22,225 bases of DNA, taken from a virus. The stretch is from positions 1 through 22,225 of IMG/VR virus record IMGVR_UViG_3300048999_000031; one strand, given 5' to 3'. The notes under the pieces are model-generated. The model was not told where the DNA came from and did not search any database. It saw only the letters and a list, made by a program, of their open reading frames with translations. Each line of letters begins with the position of its first letter. Positions within the stretch are counted from its first letter, which is position 1. A program made the position numbers and the translations under genes. Positions 11,517 through 22,167 of this stretch are shown here, in pieces.

Positions 11517-11536
11517 CCCGCCCTGATTAGGACGGG
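11517..11536 (-). terminator. Hairpin spanning the tail tube stop codon
   Basis: On the minus strand CCCGTCC pairs with GGGCGGG (one G-U pair) around a 6-nt loop, overlapping the tail tube stop at 11527-11529. It is followed by TTAAAC rather than a full T-run. It may be a weak terminator or an mRNA-stabilising stem. Confidence 0.4.
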
Positions 11537-12078
11537 GACGCTGCGACGTTGGTGAACTTGGCGAGGCCGAACTTGCCGTCGTTCGCGCCGCCCTCGGCGA
11601 CGAGCATGTCGCCGGTGACCTCCATGTTGTTCCACTCGTCGGAGATCATCTGCAGATCGCCCGACGGAGTGAACGACACGTTGTACAGGTCGACCGTGAT
11701 CTTCGGACCAACGTCGTTGGTGCCGACGAACTTCAGCTCGCCCGTAACCTGCGTCGTGTCGAACACGTTGACTTCCGGGCCGCCGACAGCGTCCTCGTCA
11801 ACGGTGCCGAGCACCATCATGGAGAGGTTGTGAGCCGTGAACTCCTCCATGACCATCTTGACCGTGCCCTTTTTCTCGAGCACGATCGTGAGGTCCTTCT
11901 TCTTGACGCCGGCTCGCGACGAGAAGTGCTCGAGGGTGGTCAGGTCCGGCGTGATGATCAGGCTGGTTACGTTGCCGAGATCGCGGAACGTGCTGTCGCC
12001 GGTCTTCTTGAAAGACACGATGCCCTTGCCGACCTGAAGGTTGCCGACGTTGGGCGAAGTGAGGGTAGGTGTAGTCAT
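11527..12078 (-). CDS. Major tail tube protein
   Basis: A 183-aa, beta-rich protein. The N-terminus (SPNVGNLQVGKGIVSFKK) and the following pattern (STFRDLGNVTSLIITPDL, LEHFSSRAGVKKKDLTIVLE, VKMVMEEFTAHNLSMMVLG) match the tail tube family of proteobacterial siphophages. The C-terminal half contains FVGTNDVGPKITVDLYNVSF. It lies directly upstream of the tail chaperones and downstream of a tail-terminator candidate. ATG 12078 has AAGGAG 10 nt upstream. A hairpin overlaps its stop codon. Strong expression is expected for this high-copy component. Confidence 0.88.
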   Translation of the reverse strand: MTTPTLTSPNVGNLQVGKGIVSFKKTGDSTFRDLGNVTSLIITPDLTTLEHFSSRAGVKKKDLTIVLEKKGTVKMVMEEFTAHNLSMMVLGTVDEDAVGGPEVNVFDTTQVTGELKFVGTNDVGPKITVDLYNVSFTPSGDLQMISDEWNNMEVTGDMLVAEGGANDGKFGLAKFTNVAASPS

Positions 12079-15356: not shown

Positions 15357-16319
15357 TTACGACAACTGATCCGAGGTCAGGATGCCGTCAACGTAGCGCA
15401 CCGCACCCGGGCGGCGGACTTCAAGGCCGGCGAGCCTGAAGATCCCGGGCACGTCGAACACCAGCGGAGCCGTCTGGAAGACAGGCAGGAACCGATGGGT
15501 CATGGGGATGTGCATCTTCAGGACCTGCGGGTCCCGACGATACGCGATCATGCGACCGCTGGCATTCTGACCAGCGGACTCGAGACCGCGCAGTGCACGG
15601 ATGGTCAACTGTGCCCCGGTGGTCTGGGTGTACACGTTGTTCGCGCGCATGTAGTCCATCACCGACTTGTCGGTATTGGGAATGCGCTTGGTGCCCAAGA
15701 TGGTGAGGGCGCCGACCGGCAGCAACAGCGTGTCGGCCATTTCGACCGTCAAGCTGTTGACGTAGATACCGGTCAGGGCGTTGTTGATGTCGTCCATGAT
15801 GTGGTCGGCATCCTTCTGGTCCCACGTGGTGTGAGAGGACTGCTGACCGGCGAGGACGGTGGTGATGCCCGGGTAGTTCATGATCCCGTACATCGACTTC
15901 TCGCCCTTGCCGCGAAGAGCCACGTCATCGACGAACTCTTCGTATGCACGGACCGCAGCCGCAGCGCGATCGGCGCTGAGGTTGGTGCCGGGCACCATCA
16001 TGGCCTGACCGAGCTCTTCGAGGTCGTAGCGATAGCCGATGTCGGCCATCTCGATTCCGACCTCGTGCTTTGCACGGTCAACGTCAGCAACGTGGATGTC
16101 CTTGGCGCGAGCCGCGAACCATCCGGCCTTACCGGTCTTGTCGACCGAGTAGTACGTCACAGACTTCGCCCACTCATTGGCGGACGTATCCACCGGGATG
16201 AGCTGCGCATACTGGATGTCGGGATACTTGATCTCGACAACCTGCGCCTCGATGGACGAGGTCTGGCTGACCAGGAAGCCGATGGCCTGCTGGTCGGTAA
16301 CACGAAAACGAGGATGCAT
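15357..16319 (-). CDS. Major capsid protein (DUF2184 family)
   Basis: A 320-aa protein of HK97-fold flavour. It starts directly after a strong initiation region (AAGGAATAGG 4 nt before ATG 16319). Typical DUF2184 features are the N-terminal helix (QQAIGFLVSQTSSIEAQVVE), PDIQYAQLIPVDTS, YGYRYDLEEL-like DIGYRYDLEELGQAMM, the long helix ADRAAAAVRAYEEFVDDVAL, GIMNYPGIT, and the C-terminal block RMIAYRRDPQVLKMHIPM with VFDVPGIFRLAGLEVRRP. It follows the protease/scaffold and cement genes, and hairpins lie on both sides. This is the expected most abundant virion protein. No separate prohead propeptide is evident. Confidence 0.92.
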   Translation of the reverse strand: MHPRFRVTDQQAIGFLVSQTSSIEAQVVEIKYPDIQYAQLIPVDTSANEWAKSVTYYSVDKTGKAGWFAARAKDIHVADVDRAKHEVGIEMADIGYRYDLEELGQAMMVPGTNLSADRAAAAVRAYEEFVDDVALRGKGEKSMYGIMNYPGITTVLAGQQSSHTTWDQKDADHIMDDINNALTGIYVNSLTVEMADTLLLPVGALTILGTKRIPNTDKSVMDYMRANNVYTQTTGAQLTIRALRGLESAGQNASGRMIAYRRDPQVLKMHIPMTHRFLPVFQTAPLVFDVPGIFRLAGLEVRRPGAVRYVDGILTSDQLS

Positions 16320-16389: not shown

Positions 16390-16854
16390 TTAGGCGTTCT
16401 TGTTGTAGCCGGCGAGCTGCAGAAGCGCCCGTCCGCCGGTGCCGCAGGAGGTCTTCCAGCGGGCACCCTTGACGGGGCCGAGATTGCCCGACGACTGGTT
16501 CGTCCACGCGCCAGTCGCGGCGGTGAAGTAGACGTCGTCATTGACGGCGACCGCGTGCGTGGGTTCCACCCAGATGGTTCCCTTGTGCAGCACGTTGACG
16601 TTGTCAGGCGGCAGATACGCATCGTGCTCGGCGCCGAGCGTGATGGTCTTCGCGGAGCAGCCGCGCAGAGCGGCGAGGGTGCCGCCGAGCACGACTCCCT
16701 GATCGCTCAGGGAGCCCTGCGAGACAGCGCGTCCGAAGGGGATGCCCGGCGATGCAGTCTCGCAGATGCCGGTCTCGACTTCGTGGTCGCTGCCCTGGAT
16801 AGTTCCGGGAGAGTTCGGAGCAATCCGCTCCGAGTAGGTCGACTGAACAGCCAT
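16390..16854 (-). CDS. Head decoration / structural cement protein (Gp24-like)
   Basis: A 154-aa protein. The N-terminus (MAVQSTYSERIAPNSPGTIQ), the conserved region VETGICETASPGIPFGRAV and the later block HAVAVNDDVYFTAATGAW match the structural cement (Gp24-type) family, small beta proteins that stabilise capsid junctions. It lies between the scaffold/protease and the capsid gene, the usual position. It shares its 13-bp initiation motif with the capsid gene, which fits matched high expression. The C-terminus ends in ALLQLAGYNKNA. Confident on family type; the exact capsid position is not visible. Confidence 0.82.
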   Translation of the reverse strand: MAVQSTYSERIAPNSPGTIQGSDHEVETGICETASPGIPFGRAVSQGSLSDQGVVLGGTLAALRGCSAKTITLGAEHDAYLPPDNVNVLHKGTIWVEPTHAVAVNDDVYFTAATGAWTNQSSGNLGPVKGARWKTSCGTGGRALLQLAGYNKNA

Positions 16855-16872: not shown

Positions 16873-16948
16873 TTGGAGTTGAACGATGGGTAGTCTAGCG
16901 TCCCCCGATCGAACGTGAGCGGGGGACACCGTGTTGGAGTTGGACGAT
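16872..16948. repeat. 16-bp direct repeats flanking a hairpin
   Basis: gttggagttgaacgat (16872-16887) and gttggagttggacgat (16933-16948) differ at one base. They bracket the hairpin at 16900-16927 in the scaffold-cement intergenic gap. The right copy touches the protease/scaffold stop codon. Confidence 0.65.
16900..16927 (-). terminator. Hairpin after the protease/scaffold gene
   Basis: A perfect 8-bp stem (gtcccccg / cgggggac) with a 12-nt loop lies about 20 nt past the scaffold stop. There is no U-run downstream. It may act as a partial terminator or an mRNA-end stabiliser. Confidence 0.5.
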
Positions 16949-17556
16949 CAGGCCTGACCGGACGCGCCCTTCCAGGCGTTCTCGAGGCTCTTGTCGCGCT
17001 TGTCGTACATGGCCTCCTTGGCCGCACCGTCACCGACGGAGTACGACTGGGGCTGGCCCGAGAAAGCGTGAACAGTGCGCGAGATGCCGTCGTTGACAGC
17101 CTGGACACCGACGGTCAGGGTGTCGAACGACACCTTGATCATGTCTTCCTTCCAGTCCTTGGCGGCATCGCCGATCTTGGCGTCGACCACCTGCTTCATG
17201 ATCTCGCCGACGGACTTGCCGTCAACCACGACCGTGGGCAGGAGAGCCTTCGCCTTGTCGGCAACGATCGAGCGATCCTTGACGAGCGCGTCGAGCTTGG
17301 CGGGCGTCAGCTCGGAGTCCTTGAGCTGCGACTTGAGCGTGACGATCTCGGCGTCCTTGGTTGCGCCCTCGGTGGTCAACTTGGCAACTGCCTCGTCGGC
17401 CGCCTTGATGCGCTTCTGGTAGTCAGCCTCGGACTCACCGAACTTCTTCGCCACCGCCGCTGCGTCGGTGACAGCCTTGTCGAGTGCACGACGAACGACC
17501 TCAACGGCCGTATCGGACATTTCGCAAGTGATGCCGTCCACAATAAGAGTCTTCAT
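16948..17556 (-). CDS. Possible separately initiated scaffold protein (nested, same frame)
   Basis: In frame with the protease/scaffold gene, ATG 17556 (Met210, MKTLIVDGITCEMSD) is preceded by AGAAGGA with a 10-nt gap, a recognisable ribosome site inside the gene. Initiation here would give a 202-aa protein consisting of only the coiled-coil scaffold, the arrangement known for lambda C/Nu3. The site lies exactly at the boundary between the protease domain and the helical domain. This is a prediction; the 10-nt spacing is slightly long. Confidence 0.5.
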   Translation of the reverse strand: MKTLIVDGITCEMSDTAVEVVRRALDKAVTDAAAVAKKFGESEADYQKRIKAADEAVAKLTTEGATKDAEIVTLKSQLKDSELTPAKLDALVKDRSIVADKAKALLPTVVVDGKSVGEIMKQVVDAKIGDAAKDWKEDMIKVSFDTLTVGVQAVNDGISRTVHAFSGQPQSYSVGDGAAKEAMYDKRDKSLENAWKGASGQA

Positions 17557-18183
17557 GTCTCTCGTATCCTTCTGGGGTTGAACGTCGTCTACGAATGCTG
17601 AACCATCGTCCTTGTACAGGGGATGGTTGACTTCTACTTCCTGCCCATCACCGATGGACAGCTTGTCTCCGCCGCGAGCGGCATCAACTACGGCGATGTG
17701 ATTGACACGAATGCCAGTCTGCCGCCCGTCGTAGGCCTCGCCGGTTGGCGTAGTGCCCGGGGTCCAGTCGATCTCGCAGCCGTAGCCGACCGAGAGTTGA
17801 ACCTTCCCCTTCTTGACCTTCGAGATGGTGGCCGCGTCCCGCAGCATCATGGGCACGCGGACATATTCACCGTCTCGAAGAATTTCGTCGCCCGCGTCAC
17901 CGGCGCTGTACTTGCGCCAGTTCTTCGCGTTCACCATCACGGGCGGGTGATTGTCGGTGTACGGTTTGCCCGCGAAAGATGCGAGCGAGTCCTTGTTGAA
18001 CACCTCAGCCTCGTCGCGGAAGATGCGGACGATGGCCTTGTCCTTGACACCGAGTTCGCTGCCGCGATACAGCTGAATGCCGGTGCGCGCGACGCGCGGA
18101 ACAGCGGTCAAGTATCCGTCGGTGGTCTCCTTGACCTGAGCTCCGTCGTCGAGCTCCAGGGTCATGTCATTGAGATAGTGCAT
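16948..18183 (-). CDS. DUF2213 prohead protease fused to scaffold
   Basis: A 411-aa protein. Residues 1-175 match the DUF2213 domain: the Tyr/Arg block GIQLYRGSELG, an AGKPYTDNHPP segment with His79, VQLSVGYGCEIDW with Ser131, and NHIAVVDAARGG with His162. This Ser-His-His set fits an assemblin-like serine protease that matures the prohead. Residues 205-411 are helical scaffold, with a coiled coil at about 240-290 (EADYQKRIKAADEAVAKL region). ATG 18183 has GGAG 8 nt upstream and overlaps the previous gene by 17 nt. The cement and capsid genes follow, as expected. The catalytic triad is inferred from family conservation, not demonstrated. Confidence 0.8.
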   Translation of the reverse strand: MHYLNDMTLELDDGAQVKETTDGYLTAVPRVARTGIQLYRGSELGVKDKAIVRIFRDEAEVFNKDSLASFAGKPYTDNHPPVMVNAKNWRKYSAGDAGDEILRDGEYVRVPMMLRDAATISKVKKGKVQLSVGYGCEIDWTPGTTPTGEAYDGRQTGIRVNHIAVVDAARGGDKLSIGDGQEVEVNHPLYKDDGSAFVDDVQPQKDTRDMKTLIVDGITCEMSDTAVEVVRRALDKAVTDAAAVAKKFGESEADYQKRIKAADEAVAKLTTEGATKDAEIVTLKSQLKDSELTPAKLDALVKDRSIVADKAKALLPTVVVDGKSVGEIMKQVVDAKIGDAAKDWKEDMIKVSFDTLTVGVQAVNDGISRTVHAFSGQPQSYSVGDGAAKEAMYDKRDKSLENAWKGASGQA

Positions 18184-18919
18184 GCTCAGGTCTCCAGTAG
18201 CGCGTGATCCAGCTGGACTCGTTGATCGCCAGCGGGTCCCACGGTTTGCGCTTGCCGTGGAAGAATACCAATCTGTGTGACGCGCTGAACCTGCCCAACC
18301 GCTGACAGTGCAGTGGATAGGACGCCAGCACGGGATAGTCTATGTTCGTGCAGCCCTCGCGATTGACCAGCTTCCAGCTGAGCCACGCCTGATCAGAGCC
18401 GAGATACATGGCGTGCAGCGCGGCCCGGGGCGACGTGATCGGATCGAAGTCGTACCAGACGTCGTCGAGCGTGCCCGCCGTGAACATCTGAAACGAGCCG
18501 TTGTATACCTCGGTGTGATGCGTGCCAGCGAGCTTCCACCCGACGAACAGGCCCGGCGTTGCTAACACGCCGCGCAAATCACCAGTCACCAGAACGTCGA
18601 GATCGAGACCGAGGATGCGGTCGCCGGCCTTGATGCCCATCGCGCGCTGCGTTGCCCTGTCATAGAGCTTCAGCCTGCGATAGCACGAGGGCAGGTTGTC
18701 CTTCGTGGCGTTTACCAAGTCCGAGCAGTCGCTCCACAGCGGATGCGTCTCGCACTCGGTGATGCCCGCTGGATCGTCGGTCACGCAGACAATGCGAACG
18801 TCCATGCCCGGCGTGTGCTTGATCAGCGCGCGGGCCAGCGTGTTGACGTGCACTGCGCTGTAGGTGCGGTCGACACGCTTGGACCCCTGCCACTTCCACA
18901 GAACGATATGGTATCTCAC
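18167..18919 (-). CDS. GT8-like glycosyltransferase
   Basis: A 250-aa protein starting at GTG 18919, which overlaps the previous stop as GTGA and has GAGGG 5 nt upstream. An open extension upstream to 19135 overlaps the GT2 gene and is not used. Visible motifs: YSAVHVNTLARALIKHTPG at 20-38, VRIVCVTDDP at 41-50, GDRILGLDLDVLVTGDL at 99-115 containing the DxD metal site, YNGSFQMFTAG at 139-149, GSDQAWLSW at 174-182, and HGKRKPW at 221-227, the GT8-type C-terminal signature. Donor and acceptor are unknown. As the last gene of the sugar cassette, it overlaps the DUF2213 gene by 17 nt. Confidence 0.75.
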   Translation of the reverse strand: MRYHIVLWKWQGSKRVDRTYSAVHVNTLARALIKHTPGMDVRIVCVTDDPAGITECETHPLWSDCSDLVNATKDNLPSCYRRLKLYDRATQRAMGIKAGDRILGLDLDVLVTGDLRGVLATPGLFVGWKLAGTHHTEVYNGSFQMFTAGTLDDVWYDFDPITSPRAALHAMYLGSDQAWLSWKLVNREGCTNIDYPVLASYPLHCQRLGRFSASHRLVFFHGKRKPWDPLAINESSWITRYWRPEHALSQ

Positions 18920-19656
18920 AGGACCCTCTGATACGGCATTCGGAACGGGTTGACAGCGCGATAGCCCTGCCCCATTCGCTTTGCGTTGAGCGTTGAGTTG
19001 TGAACGGACCAGAGCGGGCCGTCCTTGCGCGTCAGACCCATCGTGCGCGCGTCGATACAGTCGTTGAGCCCGTACAGGATCAACTTGAACGTGTCGCTTA
19101 TCAGCACCTCCTGCAGTCCGCTCCACTTCGCGCACTTGCGGAAGTTCCCGTCGCTGCCGTACCAGCCGACGAAGTCCTCGTCATAGCCGCCCATGTCCCA
19201 GTAGTCACCCTTGTGAAACAGGAAGCTGTTCGGGTGCGAGTGATACGGGGCACCGCTTGTCATGCAGCGCCCCGGCATGTAGTACGACCCGCGATGGGCA
19301 ATCTCGTCGACGAACTTCATCATGCGGGTCACGCCCGCGCGCGAGAGCATGTGGTCCATGTCCGTTATCAGAGACCACAGAGCCTCGACATGCTTCATGC
19401 CGATATTGCGCGCACCGTCTTGTCCCCACGGCACGTCGCGCGCCGTGCGATACACCTGCACGTCGAGCGGTAGCGAGCTGCCCCAGAGACTGCGCAGCAC
19501 GACAGACGCTGGCGCGTGAGGGCTGCAATCGTCGACGATGACGAACTGCATGCGACTCTTGGCCTCTGGACTGTACAGCATCCACTCGCTGACATGCCGC
19601 TTGAGCATCTCAGGGTTGTCGTAGTATGCCATGACGAGGCCGATCTTCTGCCTCAT
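18916..19656 (-). CDS. GT2-like (GT-A fold) glycosyltransferase
   Basis: A 246-aa protein. Residues 4-45 give the nucleotide-binding fold (IGLVMAYYDNPEMLKRHV, then FVIVDDCSP), residues 98-103 carry the metal-binding TDMDHM motif, and residues 156-170 the acceptor-side GGYDEDFVGWYGSDG pattern shared with GT2/galactosyltransferase C-terminal domains. The N-terminal lid region ARDVPWGQDGARNIGM at 72-87 is also typical. It starts by ATGA overlap with the 37-aa peptide and ends by GTGA overlap with the GT8-like gene. No signal peptide or membrane segment is visible, so it is probably cytoplasmic. Donor sugar unknown. Confidence 0.78.
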   Translation of the reverse strand: MRQKIGLVMAYYDNPEMLKRHVSEWMLYSPEAKSRMQFVIVDDCSPHAPASVVLRSLWGSSLPLDVQVYRTARDVPWGQDGARNIGMKHVEALWSLITDMDHMLSRAGVTRMMKFVDEIAHRGSYYMPGRCMTSGAPYHSHPNSFLFHKGDYWDMGGYDEDFVGWYGSDGNFRKCAKWSGLQEVLISDTFKLILYGLNDCIDARTMGLTRKDGPLWSVHNSTLNAKRMGQGYRAVNPFRMPYQRVL

Positions 19657-19766
19657 GCGAAGTGCACCGCAGCGTAGACGAGAGCGGCTACGACGCCGGC
19701 TCCGCCAGCGAAGAACAGCAGAGCGCAGCCGGTGGCGTCACCGTAGTTCGTGCGATTGTGTCTCAT
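19653..19766 (-). CDS. 37-aa single-span membrane peptide
   Basis: A very short gene, ATG 19766 to TGA 19653. It joins both neighbours through ATGA overlaps and has AGGGGA 9 nt upstream, which argues that it is real. The protein is a polar N-terminus (MRHNRTNYGDAT) followed by one hydrophobic segment (CALLFFAGGAGVVAALVYAA, residues 14-33) and a short HFA end. It could anchor or organise the cassette enzymes at the membrane. A longer reading from 19862 would overlap the upstream gene by 100 nt and has no such start signal. No homologue is recognised. Confidence 0.6.
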   Translation of the reverse strand: MRHNRTNYGDATGCALLFFAGGAGVVAALVYAAVHFA

Positions 19767-20461
19767 GCTCGTGGTCCCCTGAAGTAGTCTGTTAGCAGGT
19801 TGGGCCTGTCGGCCGAATAGCCGAGCGACGAATTGCCCGCCCCGATGTGATCGACGAGGCACGGTATGCGATACAGGATATTTCGCCCCGCATTGTTCAG
19901 CACCGTGCCGATGATAAGGTCAATGTTCTTGTCCATGGCTGCGTTCACCATGAACGAGCGATAGCCCTCGTGATTCTGCAGAGCCAGAGCCTGAGCGTAC
20001 CGGAAGAGCAGACACTGCGCTCCCCACGTCTTCCGACCGTGCTGCATCTTGTCCCAGTGCCATCCGTCGCCGAGCGGCCCCGCGTCTTTCGTGTGCTTGC
20101 GCGGCGCGTAGAGTGAGAGTGCGCCGACGTTGACCAGCTTGCGCGCGGCCACGAGGCTGCTCAGATCTCGATCGAGAATCTCGGCGGCCCCCGCCTGCCA
20201 CACGATGTCGTCCTCGCAGACCATGAGCCAGTCATCCGGGTCTCCCTGAGCGACGAGCAGCGACAGCGCCCTGTCCCAGTTGAGCTTGTTCCCGAGCTTG
20301 ACCTCGTTCTTGACGTTGAACACGCCGTCCATGACGACGGTCTCAGGCCCGTCGTTGCATACTATCACGTCGCCCTTGAAGCCCGCCCTGCGATAGCTCA
20401 CCAGAGACTCGGCGAGCGTAGAGCGGGGGCGCGGCGCGGTGATTATCGCGGTGCGAATCAC
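19763..20461 (-). CDS. Glycosyltransferase-like protein (EDD motif)
   Basis: A 232-aa protein starting at GTG 20461, which overlaps the methyltransferase stop as GTGA; GGTGGG upstream is a usable ribosome site. A TTG 15 nt earlier is a less likely start. Motifs: IRTAIITAPRP at 2-11, VIVCNDGPE at 32-40, NKLNWDRAL at 58-66, WLMVCEDDIVWQ at 78-89 with an acidic metal-site triad, WGAQCLLF at 146-153, and CLVDHIGAGNSS at 201-212 with a conserved-looking His. This is the layout of small GT-A-type transferases found in phages. No membrane segment is visible. Sugar specificity cannot be told. Confidence 0.68.
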   Translation of the reverse strand: MIRTAIITAPRPRSTLAESLVSYRRAGFKGDVIVCNDGPETVVMDGVFNVKNEVKLGNKLNWDRALSLLVAQGDPDDWLMVCEDDIVWQAGAAEILDRDLSSLVAARKLVNVGALSLYAPRKHTKDAGPLGDGWHWDKMQHGRKTWGAQCLLFRYAQALALQNHEGYRSFMVNAAMDKNIDLIIGTVLNNAGRNILYRIPCLVDHIGAGNSSLGYSADRPNLLTDYFRGPRA

Positions 20462-21057
20462 AGCTGGACCCACCAATACGACGAGTCGAGCTTGTAGTTG
20501 GCGTTCCGCCGACCATCGCGGCTGTTGATCTTGACGTTGATCCTGTTCTTGCCGAACCGCTCAAGCACGGCCTGCTCGACGCCCGGCCAAGTGTAGTCGT
20601 CGCCGCTTATGATGCCACCTGTCTTCATCTTGGGCAACCACGCGGCGAGGTCCGCTTTCACGGCCTCGTAGCTGTGGTCGCCGTCGAGCATGATGAAGTC
20701 GACGCTGTTGCCCTGCATGTAGCGAGACGCCTCGACACTGGTCATGCGCATGGCCTTGATGCGATGGATGACCGGATGCACGTTCATCATGAACATGTCG
20801 TACACCTGACGGACACCGAGCTGCTTGAAGTGCTCAGTCTCGCGCAGGTCCGGACCGCCGTCCAGCCATGGGTCGACGCACACGAACTCGATTGCGCGAC
20901 CGCTGTTCTCGATCTCGACGGCCATCAGCGCCGCGCTGCGACCGAGCCACGAGCCTACCTCGACGAAACGACTGCCAGACGGGAACCGCTTGACCACGTC
21001 TTTGTAGAGCTGCTCGAACGCCGCCCATCCCGCTATGTTCTTGTAGAAGTGTTCCAT
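20458..21057 (-). CDS. SAM-dependent methyltransferase (class I, sugar O-methyltransferase-like)
   Basis: A 199-aa protein using ATG 21057 (MEHFYKNIAGWAAF). Longer readings to 21069 or 21150 add unsupported residues across the membrane-protein gene. Motif I is FVEVGSWLGRSA at 31-42 (SAM loop), VCVDPWLDGG at 59-68 is the acidic post-I region, and DFIMLDGDHSYEAVKADL at 120-137 with GGIISGDDY at 147-155 is the signature of Methyltransf_24/TylF-like enzymes, many of which O-methylate sugars. No DNA-methyltransferase motif (DPPY/NPPY) is present. It heads a string of stop-start overlaps with three glycosyltransferases, which suggests it methylates the transferred sugar. The acceptor is inferred. 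Confidence 0.78.
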   Translation of the reverse strand: MEHFYKNIAGWAAFEQLYKDVVKRFPSGSRFVEVGSWLGRSAALMAVEIENSGRAIEFVCVDPWLDGGPDLRETEHFKQLGVRQVYDMFMMNVHPVIHRIKAMRMTSVEASRYMQGNSVDFIMLDGDHSYEAVKADLAAWLPKMKTGGIISGDDYTWPGVEQAVLERFGKNRINVKINSRDGRRNANYKLDSSYWWVQL

Positions 21058-21224
21058 TCCAGTACCCATGCCACGCAAATCAGGAACAGCATGATCGGCA
21101 AGAAAACGAGGGACGTATACCCGAAGTCGTTCTTCACGCTCGCCAACCACACTACGAAAGCGATCCAGAGAGCGAAGCCGCCGTGCGTCAGCACGAACAG
21201 CTGAGTGCCCGACAGCTTCGCCAT
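21033..21224 (-). CDS. Small two-helix membrane protein
   Basis: A 63-aa protein. Two hydrophobic segments are visible (LFVLTHGGFALWIAFVVWL and LVFLPIMLFLICVAWVLEW) separated by a short polar loop (ASVKNDFGYTS), with a short polar C-terminus (NTSTRT). AGGAG lies upstream and overlaps the previous stop; it could serve GTG 21227 (6-nt gap) or ATG 21224 (9-nt gap). It overlaps the methyltransferase start by 25 nt. Size and topology are compatible with a holin, but no lysin or spanin is adjacent, so an unknown envelope function is the safer call. Confidence 0.65.
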   Translation of the reverse strand: MAKLSGTQLFVLTHGGFALWIAFVVWLASVKNDFGYTSLVFLPIMLFLICVAWVLEWNTSTRT

Positions 21225-21236
21225 CACTGGTTACTC

Positions 21237-21741: not shown

Positions 21742-22167
21742 TTACTCGGCGGCCGGAGTGCCAGCCGTGACGGCGTCCGCGACCTTCTGCGCGTTCGAGG
21801 TCTCGGCGGCCTGGATGGCGTCGATGGTGTCGGACAGTGCCTGGACGGCGGCCGGATCGACACCGGCAGCAATCGCATCCGCAAGCTGCTGCTTGAGGGT
21901 GGCGATCTGGTCGTTGCTGTGATCGACGACGGCCTTGACCGCGTCGACGACCGAGCTCTCCGCCTGGACCGAGACCAGGAGGGCGTCTGCCTTTGCCTTG
22001 ACGTCTGCAACTGAAGTCATGATGGTGCTTTCTTTCGCTTCGATACGCCCCAGTCTACGAAGAGTCTCCACCTGCATCATGAGGACATGATGAATGTCCC
22101 TTTGCAGGTGATGCGCCCAAGCCGGAGCTTCACTTGGGAGCGAACCAATCTCGATCTCGATTTTCAT
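21742..22167 (-). CDS. Hypothetical helical/coiled-coil phage protein
   Basis: A 141-aa protein. The N-terminal 48 residues (MKIEIEIGSLPSEAPAWAHH, then IHHVLMMQVETLRRL) lead into a long helical, Ala/Val-rich body (VADVKAKADALLVSVQAESS, later IATLKQQLADAIAAG) and an Ala-rich end (VADAVTAGTPAAE). The type is common in phage structural operons, with unknown function. ATG 22167 overlaps the preceding stop as ATGA and has AAAGGTG 5 nt upstream. An internal ATG at 22020 could give a 92-aa form but has a poor ribosome site. A role in head or scaffold assembly is possible but unshown. Confidence 0.65.
   Translation of the reverse strand: MKIEIEIGSLPSEAPAWAHHLQRDIHHVLMMQVETLRRLGRIEAKESTIMTSVADVKAKADALLVSVQAESSVVDAVKAVVDHSNDQIATLKQQLADAIAAGVDPAAVQALSDTIDAIQAAETSNAQKVADAVTAGTPAAE

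Follow-up and report, generated by a model that had tools for sequence, protein, structure and literature searches.

A glycosyltransferase and O-methyltransferase cassette in a phage head operon as a probable virion glycosylation module

Phage Corndog carries an O-methyltransferase, two glycosyltransferases and a putative N-acetylglucosamine transferase between its portal and capsid protease genes, and it was suggested that these enzymes modify the capsid (PMC4351075). According to PMC11600133, which cites Freeman et al. 2023, these enzymes modify both capsid and tail-tube proteins, and PMC12619734 places the glycans at the C-termini of these two proteins. Here we describe a similar cassette in the window, the 22,225-bp IMG/VR record IMGVR_UViG_3300048999_000031 of an uncultured bacterial virus, in which the genes lie on the minus strand. 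The cassette encodes an O-methyltransferase (MT) and three glycosyltransferases of EDD-motif, GT2 and GT8 type. With a probability of roughly 0.8, we regard it as a phage-encoded virion glycosylation module that builds an O-methylated glycan.

Like the Corndog-group genes of cluster O (gp33-gp36 in Firecracker, gp35-gp38 in Corndog), the cassette is one overlapping run of an O-methyltransferase and three glycosyltransferases, and both runs lie within the head operon and precede its protease gene. In profile comparison the EDD enzyme matches Firecracker gp36 (hhalign probability 93.6, E 2e-7) and GT2 matches gp35 (probability 90, E 1.5e-6), which would make the two pairs distant homologues. The order of the glycosyltransferases differs, however, and capsid and protease belong to unrelated families, DUF2213/phrog_264 in the window and S78/Phage_capsid_4 in the Corndog group. 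In the window phage and in the Corndog-group phages Firecracker and Catdawg, capsid and tail tube alike end in serine, as they do in the Che8 type (cluster F1), for which a glycosylated capsid is reported. Tetraselmis viridis virus S20 also resembles the window, with homologous GT8 (39%) and GT2 (32%) genes beside structural genes, in an island that includes methyltransferase and sialyltransferase-like genes; its capsid is different, and the island has capsid genes on one side and head-closure genes on the other. The layout hence has a precedent in Corndog-group phages. New are the unrelated capsid lineage, the place of GT8 as the most frequent enzyme of the islands, the wide spread of its family and an acceptor motif that can be tested.

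From upstream to downstream, the window encodes 92-aa and 136-aa small proteins, a 63/64-aa membrane peptide, MT, EDD, a 37-aa peptide with a single transmembrane (TM) helix (TM37), GT2, GT8 and the head protease, followed by cement, major capsid and then neck, tube, tape measure and tail genes. The five open reading frames from MT to GT8 lie where the earlier note had placed them, co-directional with the head genes. A nucleotide search of INPHARED gave no match. The features discussed are:

20458..21057, minus strand: O-methyltransferase MT, 199 aa; Methyltransf_24 (PF13578, 8.3e-19)
19763..20461, minus strand: EDD-motif GT-A glycosyltransferase, 232 aa, start GTG at 20461; phrog_854 glucosyltransferase (6e-5)
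19653..19766, minus strand: TM37, 37-aa single-TM peptide; maximum KD19 2.22
18916..19656, minus strand: GT2-family glycosyltransferase, 246 aa; PF00535 (9.1e-6, above the gathering cutoff)
18167..18919, minus strand: GT8-like glycosyltransferase, 250 aa; phrog_1962 (5.7e-7)
16948..18183, minus strand: head maturation protease (DUF2213), 411 aa; PF09979 (2.7e-52), phrog_530 (5e-87)
16390..16854, minus strand: capsid cement protein, 154 aa; phrog_563 (2e-19), Pam3 cement protein 8hdt (1e-7)
15357..16319, minus strand: major capsid protein, 320 aa; phrog_264 (6e-86), PDB 8hdt (1e-76)
11527..12078, minus strand: major tail (tube) protein, 183 aa; phrog_807 (1e-30)
21033..21227, minus strand: small membrane protein, 63/64 aa, upstream of MT; link to the cassette uncertain

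The gene order MT-EDD-GT2-GT8-protease-cement-capsid and its tight junctions are kept at 43-59% protein identity in IMG/VR contigs with a related capsid. Diverged relatives thus retain the cassette at this locus, a check that had been proposed from the sequence of the window. Partial sets occur as well, with GT2 and GT8 in locus L009 and, in L003, only GT8, accompanied by another methyltransferase and a protein of 293 aa. The portal gene lies off the window contig; in the relatives L003 and L013 it is found upstream of the islands, and GT8-positive relatives of the window phage have a head-morphogenesis gene between portal and cassette. The isolates Erebus and RHph_N17, which have related capsids, lack the cassette, and other genes fill the slot between their head-morphogenesis and protease genes.

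An alignment query found GT8 relatives in 424 IMG/VR contigs but in only 5 contigs from 84,980 prokaryote genomes, and in all 5 the surroundings are late genes of phages or prophages. We fetched 80 of the 424 relatives. Among 77 non-redundant GT8 loci, GT2 is nearby in 52, the DUF2213 protease in 27, MT in 24 and EDD in 9; in the loci without this protease, head-closure, neck, tail-terminator, adaptor, portal or capsid proteins are encoded just downstream of GT8. Island partners comprise other glycosyltransferases, sialyltransferase-like proteins, FkbM methyltransferases and GT-D enzymes, as well as NDP-sugar epimerases and dehydratases, a UDP-sugar dehydrogenase and hexapeptide transferases. 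Of the five, locus L101 is a clear prophage of Alcaligenaceae bacterium strain CAII-56, in which terminase, portal, protease and capsid genes precede GT8 and connector genes follow it; here GT8 stands alone between the capsid, which ends in LTASS, and a head-tail connector, and the prophage might serve as a laboratory model. In L099 and L102 head/neck-type genes adjoin GT8, L098 equals the viral contig of L028 in length, and in L100 the region is late and phage-like, with neighbouring genes that are less clear. The GT8 family is essentially phage-specific, and its loci are glycan-building islands within head/neck operons of several unrelated capsid types.

Candidate acceptors emerge at the C-termini of the structural proteins. 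Among solved structures the Pam3 capsid (8hdt) is the closest relative; its alignment with the window capsid stops at VDG, and from there the window protein continues with the 8-residue tail ILTSDQLS. The window tail tube ends in NVAASPS. All 20 distinct capsids of GT8-positive phages have such a tail of 6-9 residues, with 14 ending in serine and 6 in glutamate, whereas 18 capsids of the 33 GT8-lacking relatives are almost tail-less and 2 end in serine. Tail tubes end in serine or threonine in 14/14 distinct GT8-positive phages versus 3/7 without GT8. Capsid tail and GT8 co-occur with a Fisher p of 2e-5. As independent proof we rejected this co-occurrence, since it is phylogenetically clustered and not significant when counted over independent pairs (sign test). 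The stronger argument comes from glycosylated phages that are unrelated: capsids and tubes of Che8, Fruitloop, Firecracker and Catdawg end in serine (NKTGS/YSDGS, PLVGS/IKGDS), while those of the controls TM4 and Bxb1 do not. The C-terminal serines of capsid and tube are the predicted glycan acceptors. Of the three acceptors initially proposed, capsid and tail tube are thus favoured; the cement protein is less likely because its C-terminus is not conserved.

The glutamate-ended capsids of GT8-positive phages carry -YE or -SE ends (L003, L042, L045, L050, L053, L038). They might use a different acceptor, i.e., a tyrosine as in glycogenin, or undergo an additional C-terminal modification. Beside the islands we also observed a recurrent protein of about 300 aa (L013:4315-5196, L003:8270-9151, L026, L034, L038, L040, L041, L052, L056) that by eye resembles a RimK-type ATP-grasp ligase; the L013 member had no Pfam match, the protein had no PDB profile match, and the window is without it. 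RimK-type enzymes attach residues to protein C-termini. The location of this neighbour beside capsids with short C-terminal tails is suggestive.

The four enzyme assignments made at the outset agree with the family matches. For MT, the SAM (S-adenosylmethionine) motif region VEVGSWLGRSAA and the DGDH...GDDY residues are kept in 5 relatives; the protein carries SAM motif I and acidic metal-site residues, and its putative substrate is a sugar. Weaker matches point to PF04989 (RMNT_CmcI, 5.5e-4) and PF05711 (TylF, 8.7e-4), and the TylF and CmcI families include sugar O-methyltransferases. The phrog_2675 label would make MT a DNA methyltransferase; we discarded this, as the matched part is Methyltransf_24 and MT matched no DNA-methyltransferase Pfam family. 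The EDD enzyme gave no match in the Pfam scan and no phage match by tblastn. Its AlphaFold model (pLDDT 87) adopts a GT-A fold, with POMGNT1 (TMq 0.65), GnT-I (0.58) and also SpsA and KfiA as Foldseek matches, and its CEDD motif is invariant in 10 relatives. GT8, the most conserved cassette member, falls below all Pfam thresholds. Its model (pLDDT 91) likewise has a GT-A fold, and as in the GT8 family with LgtC and glycogenin, a DxD motif is present; Foldseek ranked LgtC on top (3e-9), next to GTA/GTB and glycogenin, and the DLD and GSDQ.W motifs are kept in relatives. Structure prediction, which the earlier note had called for, thus places both EDD and GT8 among GT-A folds. GT2 was assigned via its sequence family; its profile resembles chondroitin synthase (8e-8) and TarS/TarP, and the VDDxS, TDxDH and GGYDE motifs are kept in relatives. 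Single-sequence IMG/VR scans with EDD and GT2 confirmed nothing, and alignment queries were required. Among aligned relatives, the metal-binding DxD/EDD motifs are invariant. A TM helix was found in 0/270 cassette enzymes, so that cytosolic action is expected.

TM37 fits exactly between EDD and GT2, but is absent from L002, L007, L008 and L013, and EDD directly abuts GT2 in relatives. As it is not conserved, it was ruled out as an essential part and should not be counted as a pathway component. All four claimed consecutive stop-start overlaps are present: GTGA at MT/EDD, ATGA at EDD/TM37 and TM37/GT2, and GTGA at GT2/GT8. Such 4-nt overlaps occur at 4/4 cassette junctions versus 0/21 remaining junctions of the window (Fisher p = 8e-5). 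Across related islands the excess is smaller, 33% versus 21% of junctions, and being only mild there, the overlaps are no signature on their own. The "stoichiometric pathway" read from the tight coupling is hence a weak argument that the overlaps do not imply. At the flanks, GT8 and protease share 17 nt, and MT shares 25 nt with the upstream 63/64-aa membrane peptide.

Taken as a virion glycosylation module, the cassette would work as follows, where we infer enzyme activity, acceptor residues, sugar order, the attachment of the methyl group to a sugar and any advantage for the phage. The enzymes would be co-translated from the head operon. During late expression, the three soluble GT-A-fold glycosyltransferases might draw on host sugar nucleotides and assemble a short glycan on freshly synthesised structural proteins, and the O-methyltransferase would methylate a sugar hydroxyl. 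The likeliest acceptors would be the C-terminal serines of the major capsid (ILTSDQLS) and the tail tube (AASPS). As a result, capsid and tail would bear the glycan on their surface, which may alter adsorption, protection or recognition. Several observations weigh against this reading. GT8 has no counterpart in the Corndog group, with no profile match to Firecracker gp34, and MT gave no hhalign alignment with gp33 although both match PF13578. Within the capsid family, the tail association is clade-confounded, tails also occur on 15/33 GT8-lacking relatives, and some GT8-positive capsids end in glutamate instead of serine. Because it rests on few independent transitions on the capsid tree, the association of GT8 with the tail is suggestive within the capsid family but is no proof. 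Still, an O-methylated sugar on virion proteins, as the earlier note had proposed, is the best-supported reading, given synteny, phage-specific GT8, the Corndog layout and the serine ends.

Glycosyltransferases of phages may also serve other ends. The cassette might remodel lipopolysaccharide or capsule during infection and thereby exclude other phages or mask receptors on debris. LgtC, the top Foldseek match of GT8, acts on lipooligosaccharide, as do other GT8 enzymes, and FkbM methyltransferases and NDP-sugar enzymes as in the related islands also occur in envelope glycan clusters. Serotype-conversion clusters of the gtrABC type, however, comprise a flippase, a bactoprenol glycosyltransferase and a multi-TM transferase, unlike the cassette with its helix-free enzymes; no flippase or bactoprenol transferase is among the common island partners. 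Moreover, the GT8 family is nearly absent from bacterial genomes and tied to late head and neck genes in phages that are unrelated, and not to sites of lysogenic conversion. The missing membrane components and the late head/neck location thus disfavour host-surface modification, formerly listed as an alternative, and we consider it unlikely.

Phage glycosyltransferases often glycosylate modified DNA bases, as stated in PMC12619734, and the cassette could accordingly act on a modified base of the phage genome. Among the 7 large contigs of related phages, a thymidylate-synthase-like gene indeed occurs in 3 and a C5 methylase in 1. Yet the thymidylate-synthase homologue is missing in 4/7, including G007 and G012 with the complete MT-EDD-GT2-GT8 set, and a TET/JBP homologue was detected in 0/7 by a search whose control also stayed silent. 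The cassette lies in the head operon, not among replication genes, and DNA hypermodification would leave the C-terminal pattern of capsid and tube unexplained. We thus hold it to be very unlikely, in line with its first assessment, although the reason given then, that no hypermodification enzyme was visible, is not judgeable from 22 kb. Finally, the cassette may be one of several fillings of an accessory slot for unrelated late enzymes, in which the glycosyltransferases would act on a defence protein of the host or on a small molecule in the cell. GT8-lacking relatives have ADP-ribosyltransferase, NUDIX and papain-like domains as well as Acb1 in the slot region, and hence the slot does take accessory genes. 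Against such a counter-defence role speak late co-expression with head genes, the modules of several enzymes for glycans and methyl groups, and the direct precedent of the Corndog group, so that we give it hardly any credence.

The slot shows further variation. Upstream of the protease in the GT8-lacking relatives L114-L172, it is a hypervariable region of the head operon with ADP-ribosyltransferase, NUDIX, papain-like and FkbM domains, along with proteins as large as 1000-1700 aa. A look for other glycosyltransferases in the slot of tail-bearing relatives without GT8 gave only one GT9 and two FkbM matches. Portals of related phages carry a C-terminal Acb1 (anti-CBASS) domain, as seen in L013:3-2033 (residues 478-622, E 5e-37), L003:4487-6448 (residues 495-642, E 8e-33) and also L004:1-678. 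Fused to the portal, Acb1 would belong to the virion, and the head protease might set it free. Upstream of the methyltransferase region, the window encodes a small coiled-coil-like protein (21742-22020) with counterparts in L002:7422-7694 and L023:7476-7775; in these relatives a small membrane protein comes next, and similar small TM open reading frames in L002 and L023 occupy the position of the 63/64-aa peptide.

Tailed-phage virion glycosylation is experimentally known from mycobacteriophages, and the present locus and its relatives point to this trait in hundreds of phage contigs with unrelated capsids. A further step would be that a phage-specific, GT8-led island is swapped between unrelated head modules and decorates capsids and tail tubes of many uncultured phages via a short serine-ended C-terminal tail alone, for which we see even odds. 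If this holds, glycosylated virions would be common among tailed phages in the environment, and the C-terminal acceptor tag would be portable. The predicted acceptor, a C-terminal serine on capsid and tube, is concrete and testable by mass spectrometry, and such a tag, being short and portable, could be useful for placing glycans on capsids.

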